A program made the translations under genes and the position numbers. 51,130 nucleotides of DNA, from assembly GCF_000787815.1 (NCBI RefSeq), contig NZ_BBPO01000031.1:1-51130 (forward strand). The letters are read 5' to 3'. Positions 47,269-51,130 of the stretch are shown in pieces. Numbering within the stretch: the first letter of the stretch is position 1; every line of letters begins with the position of its first letter. The notes beneath the pieces were generated by a model. The model saw nothing but the letters and a program-made list of their open reading frames with translations, had not been told where the DNA came from and searched no databases. This stretch comes from Streptacidiphilus neutrinimicus (GTDB lineage: Bacteria; Actinomycetota; Actinomycetes; Streptomycetales; Streptomycetaceae).

Positions 47269-50200
47269 TCAGCCCGCGGTGAGCCGTCGGGCCTCCGCGG
47301 CGGCGGTCGACAGGCGCGGCAGCGGATCCGGCCGGTCAAGCCGCCCGTCGCTCCGCAGCAGCGAGAGGTACTGCCGGCGCGGCATCAGCACCGCTCCCAG
47401 GGAGCGGACATGGGGGCTGTCGCGCTGGGCGTCCAGGAGCTCGCCGCCCGCCTCGGCGAAGCGCCGGGCCAGGTCGGCGACGGCGACCGCACCGGAGCCC
47501 GGGCGGGCGCCGAACATCGAGTCCATGCTGAAGACGCGGCCGACCCGCACGCCGAAGACCCCGCCGACCAGCTGGTCGCCCTCCCAGACCTCCGCGCTGT
47601 GGGCCAGGCCCCGCGCGTGCAGCACCAGCAGGCAGTCCATCAGTTCGTCGGTGAGCCAGAGGGGTTGGCGTCCCGTCCGGCAGGCGTGCAGGACCTGCTC
47701 GAAGGCCCGGTCGGCGCTGGTGGTCCAGCGCAGTCGATGGTTCAGGCTGCGCGCGAGCCTGCGGCTGAGGTGGACCTCGGAGACGGGGATCACCGGCCGT
47801 GGGTCGGGCGACCACCAGGCGACGGCCCAGGGGTCGTCGCCCTGCCCGATCACGGGGATCCGCCCGGCGCGCACCTCGCCGCCGTAGGCGGCCCGCGCCG
47901 TCTCGCGGATGCGGTCGTCGGCCGCGGGCATCGGATAGGCGCCCGCGACGTACGCCGCCTGGACCTCGTCGGGGGCGAGGCTGCCCCCGAAGGCGACCGG
48001 GGCGTCCGCGGGGGCGTGGGAGAGGTCGAGCGCGGGCCAGGAGGCGCCCCGCCGTGCCGGGCCCGAGGCGTTCCGGGGCGGGCGGGAGAGAAAGCCCTCG
48101 CCTTCGAGGGCGTCCACGTAGCGGCCGAGCATCCGCGGGTCCACCGGGGGGATGCTCAGACCGCTGTCGGCCAGGGCGGCCTCCATGTGGTCCCGGCTGA
48201 ACCGAGGGAAGACGCTCTGCAGGTACATCTCGCTGACGCTCATGTCGGCGTGGTTGCAGCGGTCGACGAAGAGGGGCACGAAGGGGGTCACCGGATGGGC
48301 CGGGTGCTCGGCCGCGAAGCGGATCAGCGCGCCCACCCACTCGGGGTAGGGGACGTCGCGGACGGCCCACCCCCGCGTCCGCAGGCTGTCGCGCAGCACG
48401 TCCACCAGCGCGGGGCGGGGGTTGGTCAGGTGGTAGACGCCCCCGGGGCGGGGGACGGCGGTGGAGATGTGGTGGACCGCGCGGGCGAAGCAGTCGGCCG
48501 GGAGCAGGTCCAGCGGCAGGTCCACGGCGGGGCACAGACCGGAGTCGGCCACGAACCTGACGAGGGCGCAGATCTCCGTCCCGGTGTTGAGCACGCCGGT
48601 GCTCAGCGGGCCGGTGACGTCCTGGAGCCGGTAGACGCTGACCGGGACGCCCGCCGCGGCGGCATGCTGCAGCAGCAGCTCCGCCACCCACTTGGACTCG
48701 ACGTATCCGACCGAGAGGTAGTCGGCGTGGGCCAAGGGGGTGCGCTCGGTGACCGACCTGACGCCCGCGGCTCCGTACCCGGCCATCACCGCCAGGCTGG
48801 AGGTGTGGTGGAGCGGGACGGACCGGCGCGCGGCCAGCTCGACCAGCGCCCGCACGGAGCCCACGTTCACGGCCCTCAGGTCCTGGTAGGGGTAGATGAA
48901 GTTGACCTGGGCGCCGAAGTGGTAGATGAGGTCGAGGTCGTTTTCCAGCGCGGCGGCGATCTCCGGGGCGAGCCCGAGCCCCGGCGCGGCGAGGTCGCCG
49001 ACGGTCGGCAGGATCCGGTCCCGGCGCCGGTCGGCGGCGAGGTCCCGGCGCAGGTAGCGCAGGTGGGCCGCGCGCAGCCGCTCGAAGGCCTGGGCCGGGT
49101 CGGCGGCGCGCACCAGGCAGTGGATCCGGGCTCCGGTGCGCTGCAGGAGTTCGTCGAGCATGTGCGCGCCGCACAGCCCGGTCGCCCCGGTGAGCAGGAT
49201 GTCCTTCGGCCGGTGCGGGTTCGGCTCCGGGCCGCGGGTCCCGACGGCGGTGAGGCTCAGCGCCGCCTCGGCGGTGAAGTCGACCGGTGGCTGGTCGGCG
49301 CCGGTCAGCCGGCCACGCCGGGCCAGCATCGCCTGCTCGGTGAAGGCGGCGAGGGTGGGACGGCGCAGCAGCGCGCGGGAGAGCTCGCGCACCTCGGTGA
49401 TGTCGATGCCGAAGATGACGCGGGCCCGCGCCAGCATCTCCATGGCGAGCAGCGAGTTGCCGCCCAGGTGGAAGAAGTCGTCGTCCTGGCGGACGTGTCC
49501 GACACCGAGGATCTGCGACCACAGGTGCGCCATGGCGGCGTGCGGGCGAAGCGGCGCCGCCGGAGCGGCCGGGAGCGACCCGGCCGGCGGACGGAGGGCC
49601 TGCGGTGCGACCGACTGCGGTGCGGCCGCCTGCGCGTCGTGCGGAACAGCAGCCCCGGCGGGAAGCGCGGCGCGGCCGGACGCGGGGGCGACGTCGGAGC
49701 GGGCCGGCGGCCGGCCGCGGGCCAGGGCCCGGCGGTCGATCTTCCCGTGCGGCGTGACGGGCAGGTTCTCCACGGCGGTGAACGAGGCGGGCATCATGTA
49801 GCCGGGCAGGGCCCGGGCGAGCGCGCGGCGCAGCTGGTCCGCCGTCTCGCCGTCGGGCGCGGCGTCCGGCGCGGGGCGGTAGAACGCGGCCAGCTGCTGG
49901 TCCAGTTGGTCGCGCCGGTCGCGCTGCCGCGCCACGACGACGACGTCGTCGACGGCCGGGTGGGCCCGCAGCACGGCCTCGATCTCCGCGGGGTCGATCC
50001 GGTGACCGAGGATCTTGATCTGGTCGTCGACGCGGCCGACCACCGACAGCGTCCCGTCCGGCTCCAGCACCCCGATGTCGCCGGTGCGGTACATCCGGCC
50101 CCCAGGGGCGTCGGCGAGCGGGTCCGGCAGGAACTCCTCCGCCGTCCGGTCGGGCTGCCGCCAGATGCCCTCGGCCAGATGGTCGCCGCCGATGTAGACC

Positions 50201-51130
50201 TGGCCCCGTTCGCCGGGCGGCACCGGTCGCAGCGCCGGGTCGAGCAGGTGGACGCGGGTGCCCCGGAGGGGGCGGCCCACCGGGGCCGGGGCGCTGTCGT
50301 CCGCCGAGGCGGCCCATGCGCCGAGGTCGCAGGTGGTTGAGGTGATCGTGGTCTCGGTCAGCCCGTAGGCGTTGACCAGCCTGGCGCCCGGGGCGTGCTC
50401 CAGCCAGCCGCGGCAGTCCTTGGCCCGTACGATCTCGCCGCCGACGACCACCAGCCGCAGCGTGTCGAGCGCGTACCGGCCGGCCCCGAGCAGGCTGAGG
50501 AGCTGGCGGGAGTAGGCGGGCGTGAGGTCGAGCGTGGAGACGCGGTGCCGGGCGACGGCGTCCAGCACTTCGGTGGGGGCCCAGGGCGGCCCGCCGGTCA
50601 GGACGGTGGTGGCCCCGGTGATCAGGGGGCCGAAGATCTGCTCGAGCGAGGTGTCGAAGCTGATCGCGGCCAGGTGCACGGCCCGGTCCCCGGGATGCCA
50701 GCCGTACCAGGCGGCGGACGCCGCCAGGGAGCCGGCCAGGGAGCGGTGGGTGACCGCGATGCCCTTGGGCGCGCCGGTGGTGCCGGAGGTGTAGATCAGG
50801 TAGGCGATGTCGTCCGGGTCGGGCTCGTCCGGCCGTGGCCGCTCCCACGGTCCCTCGGCCGGGCGGCCCGCGCCGGTCACCTCGTCGACCGGGACGACCG
50901 CCGCGGTCGCGGCCCCGCGACCGGAGCCCTCGGGCCCCGCCGTCGCGGCGGCCTCGCACAGCCGCCGGTGGTCCTCCCCGGTGACCACCAGCCGGGCCCG
51001 CGCGTCGCCCAGCAGGTGGGCCAGGCGGGCGGGGGGCATCGCTGGATCGAGCGGCAGGAGCGTCGCCCCGGTGCGCAGGATGGCGAGCAGGCAGACCACC
51101 AGATCGGCGGTGCGGTCCAGGCAGACCGCC
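47269..51130 (-). CDS. NRPS-like A-PCP-thioester reductase fused to an Aat (Leu/Phe-tRNA transferase) domain, 5' partial
   Basis: The frame is open to the right edge, so the start is missing; positions count from the GTG at 51099. An adenylation domain (A3 YTSGTTGAPKG 103-113, A5 NAYGLTETT 243-251, A8 GRVDDQIKILGHRI 355-368, A10 Lys453) is followed by a Pro/Ala-rich linker (460-520), a carrier domain (FHLGGNSLLA, Ser549), a thioester-reductase domain (GATGLCG 638-644; YVESK 799-803) and, from about 1034 to the end (47272-48000), a leucyl/phenylalanyl-tRNA-protein transferase domain. There the Aat features are visible: AWWSPDPRPV, LWLTDEL with Trp1148, SMDSMFG, LLDAQ with Asp1223 and Gln1225, and SLGAVLMPRRQYL. 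It should activate one amino acid, add another from aminoacyl-tRNA and release an aldehyde. Confidence 0.9.
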   Translation of the reverse strand, partial: AVCLDRTADLVVCLLAILRTGATLLPLDPAMPPARLAHLLGDARARLVVTGEDHRRLCEAAATAGPEGSGRGAATAAVVPVDEVTGAGRPAEGPWERPRPDEPDPDDIAYLIYTSGTTGAPKGIAVTHRSLAGSLAASAAWYGWHPGDRAVHLAAISFDTSLEQIFGPLITGATTVLTGGPPWAPTEVLDAVARHRVSTLDLTPAYSRQLLSLLGAGRYALDTLRLVVVGGEIVRAKDCRGWLEHAPGARLVNAYGLTETTITSTTCDLGAWAASADDSAPAPVGRPLRGTRVHLLDPALRPVPPGERGQVYIGGDHLAEGIWRQPDRTAEEFLPDPLADAPGGRMYRTGDIGVLEPDGTLSVVGRVDDQIKILGHRIDPAEIEAVLRAHPAVDDVVVVARQRDRRDQLDQQLAAFYRPAPDAAPDGETADQLRRALARALPGYMMPASFTAVENLPVTPHGKIDRRALARGRPPARSDVAPASGRAALPAGAAVPHDAQAAAPQSVAPQALRPPAGSLPAAPAAPLRPHAAMAHLWSQILGVGHVRQDDDFFHLGGNSLLAMEMLARARVIFGIDITEVRELSRALLRRPTLAAFTEQAMLARRGRLTGADQPPVDFTAEAALSLTAVGTRGPEPNPHRPKDILLTGATGLCGAHMLDELLQRTGARIHCLVRAADPAQAFERLRAAHLRYLRRDLAADRRRDRILPTVGDLAAPGLGLAPEIAAALENDLDLIYHFGAQVNFIYPYQDLRAVNVGSVRALVELAARRSVPLHHTSSLAVMAGYGAAGVRSVTERTPLAHADYLSVGYVESKWVAELLLQHAAAAGVPVSVYRLQDVTGPLSTGVLNTGTEICALVRFVADSGLCPAVDLPLDLLPADCFARAVHHISTAVPRPGGVYHLTNPRPALVDVLRDSLRTRGWAVRDVPYPEWVGALIRFAAEHPAHPVTPFVPLFVDRCNHADMSVSEMYLQSVFPRFSRDHMEAALADSGLSIPPVDPRMLGRYVDALEGEGFLSRPPRNASGPARRGASWPALDLSHAPADAPVAFGGSLAPDEVQAAYVAGAYPMPAADDRIRETARAAYGGEVRAGRIPVIGQGDDPWAVAWWSPDPRPVIPVSEVHLSRRLARSLNHRLRWTTSADRAFEQVLHACRTGRQPLWLTDELMDCLLVLHARGLAHSAEVWEGDQLVGGVFGVRVGRVFSMDSMFGARPGSGAVAVADLARRFAEAGGELLDAQRDSPHVRSLGAVLMPRRQYLSLLRSDGRLDRPDPLPRLSTAAAEARRLTAG

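Follow-up and report, generated by a model that had tools for sequence, protein, structure and literature searches.

What does a bacterium make with a nonribosomal peptide synthetase (NRPS) that has no condensation (C) domain and ends in an aminoacyl-tRNA transferase domain? The question is raised by a minus-strand gene at the end of the window analyzed here, the first 51,130 bases of the 91,009-base contig NZ_BBPO01000031.1 of Streptacidiphilus neutrinimicus (assembly GCF_000787815.1; genome of 8.4 Mb in 184 contigs). The first-pass annotation had described the gene as a single-protein fusion of an NRPS reductase module to a homolog of Aat, the leucyl/phenylalanyl-tRNA-protein transferase (LFT) of E. 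coli, and this description is confirmed by sequence profiles, by the predicted fold, and by the recurrence of the fusion in six genes. On the whole we think it probable that the gene encodes a one-protein, C-domain-less dipeptide synthetase whose product is an uncapped dipeptide aldehyde that goes on to a pyrazinone, and that its activity is tied to a GGDEF-EAL enzyme encoded next to it.

Within the window the gene is a single frame, open at the window end. Pfam and NCBIfam profiles, all above cut-off, place in it AMP-binding, AMP-binding_C, PP-binding, a thioester reductase, and Leu_Phe_trans in this order (Table 1), which bears out the adenylation (A), carrier (PCP), thioester-reductase (R), and Aat-like identities proposed earlier. 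No C domain is among the Pfam matches, and A and PCP are each found once. Leu_Phe_trans scores 140 bits in the window frame against a cut-off of 22.7, and the R-domain Tyr and Lys are invariant across the alignment of the six fusions. A run of 258 Ns starts directly after the last base of the window and interrupts the A domain; a 17-base string common to the sequence ends on its two sides suggests that the run is a nominal scaffold gap. Past it, on the same strand, Pfam finds an MbtH domain, at 39.2 bits against a cut-off of 27, and the beginning of the A domain. As read from the contig, the gene reaches beyond the window, with the full order MbtH-A-PCP-R-LFT; its start likely lies at contig position 51836, giving a protein of ~1,430 residues if the N run is nominal, and the GTG start and 1276-residue length seen in the window are artefacts of the window end.

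Searched against sequences from crystal structures, the C-terminal 253 residues hit E. coli Aat at ~8e-33. Their AlphaFold model (mean pLDDT 92.9) has the Aat fold that had been anticipated: Foldseek matches it to nine Aat chains with E no higher than 5.5e-21 (best 9.2e-22; TM 0.70–0.81) and, at 3.7e-5 or worse, to FemX, aminoacyl-tRNA-dependent peptide synthases, and GNAT proteins. In an alignment of 57 family sequences, Asp186 and Trp111 (E. coli numbering) are kept in 57 and Gln188 in 54. The Asp that stands at the place of E. coli Glu156, also pointed out in the first pass, is present in 56 of the 57; it is the norm, and we rejected it as a special trait. The domain is a member of PF03588, with a profile score above cut-off and a predicted Aat fold, and Leu/Phe transfer is its predicted activity. 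The gene as a whole fits the systems of a C-minus NRPS with an L/F transferase (tRUE): it has A-PCP-R without C and the catalytic LFT residues, on the same polypeptide, and the tRNA-dependent product formation reported for the S. lividans genes (PMC10548850) is predicted for it.

Is the locus then a livipeptin cluster? The text of Aguilar et al. (2023; PMC10548850) describes a 33-member natural-product clade of L/F-transferase homologs, six of them from Streptacidiphilus, and predicts Arg as the substrate of the clade's NRPS genes. The split system of S. lividans yielded a protease-inhibiting fraction whose formation is RNase-sensitive, indicating tRNA dependence; inhibitory activity was obtained only with three genes together, encoding the NRPS, the LFT, and an N-acyltransferase, and the structure of livipeptin is given there as unsolved (PMC10548850). 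The paper also mentions ‘potentially translational fusions’ of the L/F transferase with C-minus NRPSs, marked by asterisks in its Figure 2B. Such fusions were already reported in 2023, and the earlier statement that the fused form is undescribed is refuted by that report.

Named genomes were scanned with the aligned fusion, and the best 80 of 108 relatives were kept; 63 of these loci carry both R and LFT, and the 17 without one or both by gene calls were dropped. The 63 loci fall into two sub-types. In 48 loci, four of them fused, a GGDEF-EAL gene lies within 2 kb of the NRPS gene. In 13 loci the livipeptin acyltransferase is present and there is no GGDEF-EAL gene; 12 of the 13 also have an O-methyltransferase and an acyl-CoA dehydrogenase. 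The two loci with neither are L169, where a GGDEF-EAL gene fragment is present, and L211, at a contig edge. The livipeptin partner genes were assigned from Pfam matches in Actinopolyspora xinjiangensis (a GNAT just above cut-off, an O-methyltransferase, and an acyl-CoA dehydrogenase), whose set agrees with the published livipeptin gene list. The acyltransferase has one weak match among the 48 GGDEF-EAL loci, in L203 (41% identity). Two fusions outside the 63, that of the window and L044, both adjoin a GGDEF-EAL gene. The sub-types also differ in sequence: in a tree of R + LFT from 67 loci, built by a quick method, the livipeptin-type loci all lie on one side of a support-99 branch, and 47 of the 48 GGDEF-EAL-type genes have an MbtH domain ahead of A, as against none of the 13 livipeptin-type genes. 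The MbtH profile used for this count was built from the same sequences; Pfam agrees in four trials, finding the domain in the window's gene, L203, and L050 and not in L190.

The alternative that survives best is a fused livipeptin-type protease-inhibitor pathway, in which an acyl-Leu/Phe-argininal would be capped by an acyltransferase encoded elsewhere and the GGDEF-EAL protein would be only a regulator. The two types have the A-PCP-R + LFT core in common, Streptacidiphilus and livipeptin-type enzymes are placed in one clade by PMC10548850, and the A-domain code follows the same pattern, D-T-E-D being found in 43 of 44 split GGDEF-EAL-type, five of five fused, and 12 of 13 livipeptin-type genes (with a gap at this place in the one remaining). 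Because the pattern is common to both, the two sub-types probably use the same acceptor amino acid. The distribution of the acyltransferase and of MbtH and the branch that divides the types nevertheless speak against this pathway, and we regard it as unlikely. A search of the window's genome with the Actinopolyspora relative of the acyltransferase gave no match, an empty answer that alone shows little, and neither the N-acyltransferase nor the O-methyltransferase nor the acyl-CoA dehydrogenase is among the scanned neighbors of the fused gene (a SpoIIE phosphatase, an M20 peptidase, the GGDEF-EAL gene, and B12-related genes). The window locus belongs to the GGDEF-EAL sub-type and hence is not a livipeptin cluster. 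The first-pass comparison with livipeptin thus holds for the biosynthetic logic and is incomplete as to the partner genes, which are not among the neighbors, MbtH and GGDEF-EAL being present. The protease inhibitor it had proposed loses ground as well: a capped inhibitor is less likely here because no acyltransferase lies beside the gene and published inhibition needed three-gene sets that included one (PMC10548850). The two sub-types, rather than the fusion, seem to be what is new; no description of the split was found in literature searches on LFT, NRPS, and cyclic di-GMP (c-di-GMP) terms, and the main text of PMC10548850 contains none of the words MbtH, GGDEF, and diguanylate.

How firmly is the GGDEF-EAL gene linked to the synthetase? 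It ends ~51 bases from the fused gene and encodes a protein of ~1,045 residues with, by model and Pfam, about ten long helices, a weakly GAF-like part, and then PAS, GGDEF, and EAL domains; we take the predicted helices as membrane helices. The model of the sensor region (mean pLDDT 80.7) shows helices followed by a mixed alpha/beta part, for which the best PDB match is a GAF domain at E 0.042; none reaches 0.001, and no ligand is suggested. By patterns typed by hand, all 48 GGDEF-EAL proteins have GGDEF, the inhibitory RxxD site, and EAL, and most have DDFGTGYSSL (46), NxSP (46), and LK(I/L)D (45), with EGVE in 23. The gene lies on the same strand as the NRPS gene in 25 of the 48 loci and divergently in 23, and the outer neighbors belong to 32 families among 48 upstream genes and to 27 among 44 downstream genes. 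The linkage therefore survives both inversion and change of context. In the two split loci of the genus, by our own gene starts, the GGDEF-EAL and NRPS genes overlap by 4 bases and the NRPS and LFT genes by 11.

The same association is seen across 394 genomes of the family. Strong GGDEF-EAL copies, by a threshold fixed after the list was seen, occur in 62, and 61 of these also have PF03588 (Fisher p 2e-62, a value that ignores relatedness); in the remaining one, G130, the copy sits on a 3.6 kb contig. Seven genomes have PF03588 and no strong copy: G012 is livipeptin-type, G017, G074, G131, G231, and G244 have an LFT without a nearby R domain, and G164 is unread. Weaker GGDEF-EAL relatives, mostly at 35–50% identity, are found in many other family genomes.

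How widespread, and how old, is the fusion? The PF03588 search of the family gave 76 rows in 68 genomes, of which 59 were read with their flanks and classified: six are fused, 45 are split, with A-PCP-R lying upstream in the same orientation, and eight have no R domain nearby. Six more rows, from four genomes, were read later and include no fusion; the 11 unread rows are open frames of under 400 residues, too short for one. The six fused genes come from five genomes, all of Streptacidiphilus, a genus represented by 14 genomes of which five have fusions (one with two copies) and two have split pairs. The domain order recurs, as the first pass had suggested checking, in five other genes from four other genomes, at 62–88% identity to the window's. 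Carriers besides S. neutrinimicus include S. melanogenes, S. anmyonensis, and S. pinicola; the two S. melanogenes copies (L141 and L144; R-LFT identity to the window's gene 88% and 62%) each have their own GGDEF-EAL gene. No fusion outside the genus was found among the rows read from the family, in the 80 named loci, or in a phylum sample of 396 genomes, each scored for no more than three candidates. Because the six fusions group together in the R + LFT tree (support 99), with the genus's two split pairs as their neighbors (support 92), the fusion is inferred to have arisen once.

These counts also bear on two weaker explanations. The LFT might keep its old role, the fused protein tagging cellular proteins with Leu/Phe for degradation while the NRPS part works separately, and this would suit both the conserved catalytic D-x-Q and predicted fold and the lack of any other PF03588 gene in this genome. 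We judge it very improbable: the LFT adjoins A-PCP-R in 45 split and six fused of 59 loci, several residues are changed relative to E. coli, and in S. lividans the activity of the split system depends on having both NRPS and LFT (PMC10548850). Least credible of all is a decaying remnant or misassembly with a break hidden at the junction or in the N-terminal gap, for although the N run interrupts the A domain in this assembly and the related split locus L112 looks broken, the active-site motifs are intact, a single 1,480-residue gene call of S. anmyonensis (L142) spans MbtH, A, PCP, R, and LFT, and six genes retain the fused frame, on which ground the frameshift or sequencing error at the R-LFT junction that the first pass had allowed for is rejected.

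How would such a protein work? From the domains, active-site residues, predicted fold, six fusions, two sub-types, and GGDEF-EAL linkage we infer the substrates, the order of steps, the product, and a coupling to c-di-GMP as follows. MbtH would support the A domain, which would charge the carrier with a basic amino acid, probably Arg. The LFT domain would then move Leu or Phe from an aminoacyl-tRNA to the free amine of this residue; bound to the carrier, the residue would stand in for the N-terminal Arg or Lys of a protein. Such N-terminal residues are the acceptors of E. coli Aat, so a carrier-bound Arg would suit the LFT. The R domain would release the dipeptide as an aldehyde, and a direct hand-off within the polypeptide, as the first pass had proposed, is plausible. 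The product would be a Leu/Phe-(basic amino acid) aldehyde, likely uncapped because no livipeptin-type acyltransferase lies beside the gene, and probably cyclizing through an imine to a dihydropyrazinone or pyrazinone. In the AusA pathway a dipeptide aldehyde closes to an imine and oxidizes to a pyrazinone (PMC12153313). Elsewhere, a Boc-protected dipeptide aldehyde is reported to have inhibited cathepsin L, the other tested compounds being inactive (PMC10979478). Synthesis or perception of the product would be tied to c-di-GMP through the adjacent GGDEF-EAL enzyme.

We conjecture that the livipeptin type leads to a capped inhibitor and the GGDEF-EAL type to something else, perhaps a signal. 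In a bolder version, which we hold to be rather doubtful, the GGDEF-EAL sub-type would be a signaling module: the level of the uncapped dipeptide aldehyde or pyrazinone would report charged-tRNA status, the membrane GGDEF-EAL protein would sense it and set c-di-GMP, the switch for Streptomyces development, and the Streptacidiphilus fusion would pack the whole synthesis into one protein.

Several points weigh against a pyrazinone-forming synthetase coupled to c-di-GMP. First, E. coli W49, M144, L170, and F173 are replaced (by M or I, V, V, and L) in six of six fusions, so the donor amino acid could differ from Leu/Phe. Second, the predicted substrate specificity depends on a ten-residue code read at the GrsA positions. 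Third, argininals can also cyclize via the guanidine, and an N-capping enzyme of another family or location is possible. Fourth, no GGDEF-EAL-type locus has, to our knowledge, been assigned a product. Finally, four genomes have an extra close GGDEF-EAL copy (58–60% identity) away from an LFT, and linkage by itself is no demonstration of functional coupling.

The fusion itself is not new, and the split into sub-types is testable. Should the product of the GGDEF-EAL type be an uncapped dipeptide aldehyde or pyrazinone, there would be a tRNA-dependent route to compounds of the class for which AusA uses a two-module NRPS, and a small peptide would stand next to a c-di-GMP enzyme in a sizeable minority of the family: both genes are carried by 61 of the 394 genomes sampled. 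The one-protein forms are handy for biochemistry, as they remove the question of interaction in trans.

Table 1. Features of the fused gene and its neighbor; positions are those of the window unless marked as contig positions.
Feature	Position	Strand	Basis and remarks
In-window part of MbtH-A-PCP-R-LFT gene	47269..51129	(-)	GGDEF-EAL gene upstream on contig, same strand, outside window
A domain	49741..51129	(-)	AMP-binding 1e-68, AMP-binding_C; first ~50 residues and MbtH beyond window end
A-domain code D-T-E-D-V-V-A-I-T-K	in 49741..51129	(-)	Read by hand from alignment columns
PCP (peptidyl carrier protein) domain	49393..49527	(-)	PP-binding 4.9e-8; GGNS serine present
R (thioester reductase) domain	48088..49200	(-)	NCBIfam Thioester-redct (TIGR01746) 4.7e-74, NAD_binding_4 1.9e-48; TGATGLCG and YxxxK present
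R-LFT linker	47995..48087	(-)	Variable length, low conservation in six-fusion alignment
LFT/Aat domain, PF03588	47383..47826	(-)	Leu_Phe_trans 6.7e-41; 144.3 bits in genome search, sole match in this genome; fold match
Asp-Ala-Gln, the Asp-x-Gln active-site pair (E. coli D186/Q188)	47425..47433	(-)	Alignment of 57 LFT sequences
GGDEF-EAL gene	contig 51888 to 55025 or 55061	(-), as fused gene	Beyond window

Other features were seen around these loci. Past the window, contig 55418–64241 holds B12-related genes: CbiZ, CbiJ/CobK, a tetrapyrrole methylase, a FecCD-type ABC transporter set, and methylmalonyl-CoA mutase. Downstream of the LFT no conserved extra partner was found in 57 family loci, the recurrent families being a beta-lactamase-like one (11 of 57) and one without a Pfam match (10 of 57). 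The split GGDEF-EAL-type locus L112 (G083:C1:238500-257500) has its LFT called in two pieces and its A domain unrecovered in the gene call. The extra GGDEF-EAL copies are L096, L097, L098, and L099, with like-sized genes alongside in L096, L097, and L099; in L097 these are, by Pfam, a response regulator, a HEAT-repeat protein, a glycosyltransferase, and a histidine kinase. Longer GGDEF-EAL relatives (~1,490–1,600 residues) with a C-terminal extension, directly followed by a gene of ~250–425 residues, occur in L102, L103, L104, L105, and L109.

Other LFT contexts were also met. L086, L087, L093, and L095 have another LFT type, 38–42% identical to the window's and with no R domain nearby, perhaps another way in which peptide synthesis draws on aminoacyl-tRNA; in L086, L087, and L093 the LFT is followed by a ~950-residue protein, ATPase-like by eye, a few genes from a large NRPS-cluster gene. 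L068, L082, and L089 (45–46% identity) have one conserved context, with a ~1,105-residue NRPS-clustering gene two genes away on the opposite strand. L204, L206, and L212 have A-PCP-R without an LFT match and two genes of ~400 residues just downstream (in L204 after a 241-residue gene); condensation there may be done by a different partner or a divergent LFT. A plasmid search for an S. lividans-like copy returned 37 records, all below 60% identity, with no Streptomyces among the ten genera listed.

How does the fusion compare with known systems? E. coli Aat (PDB 2z3k, 2cxa, and 2dps) has the fold, Asp-x-Gln, and W111 in common with the fused LFT, which differs in being part of an NRPS, in having Asp for E156, and in its changed W49, M144, L170, and F173. 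The GGDEF-EAL neighbor resembles, by architecture only and from model and Pfam, the Streptomyces CdgC/CdgF-type proteins, for which a 10TM-PAS-PAC-GGDEF-EAL architecture is given in S. venezuelae (PMC6205966); the wording ‘peptide synth’ is absent from the text of that paper. The livipeptin system of S. lividans 66 (Sli0883-0887; PMC10548850) shares A-PCP-R without a C domain and an L/F-transferase homolog, and its logic of tRNA-dependent amide formation and reductive release is predicted for the fusion; here, by comparison, there is one protein with MbtH and a GGDEF-EAL gene alongside, and the N-acyltransferase, O-methyltransferase, and acyl-CoA dehydrogenase are not among the neighbors. The fusions mentioned in PMC10548850 are of the same kind as the window's, in the clade with the six Streptacidiphilus entries. 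AusA-type synthetases (aureusimine/phevalin; PMC12153313) likewise release a dipeptide aldehyde by an R domain on the way to a pyrazinone, as predicted for the fusion, but they are described as using a C domain and two modules and no aminoacyl-tRNA, whereas the fusion has one A domain, one PCP domain, and no C domain.

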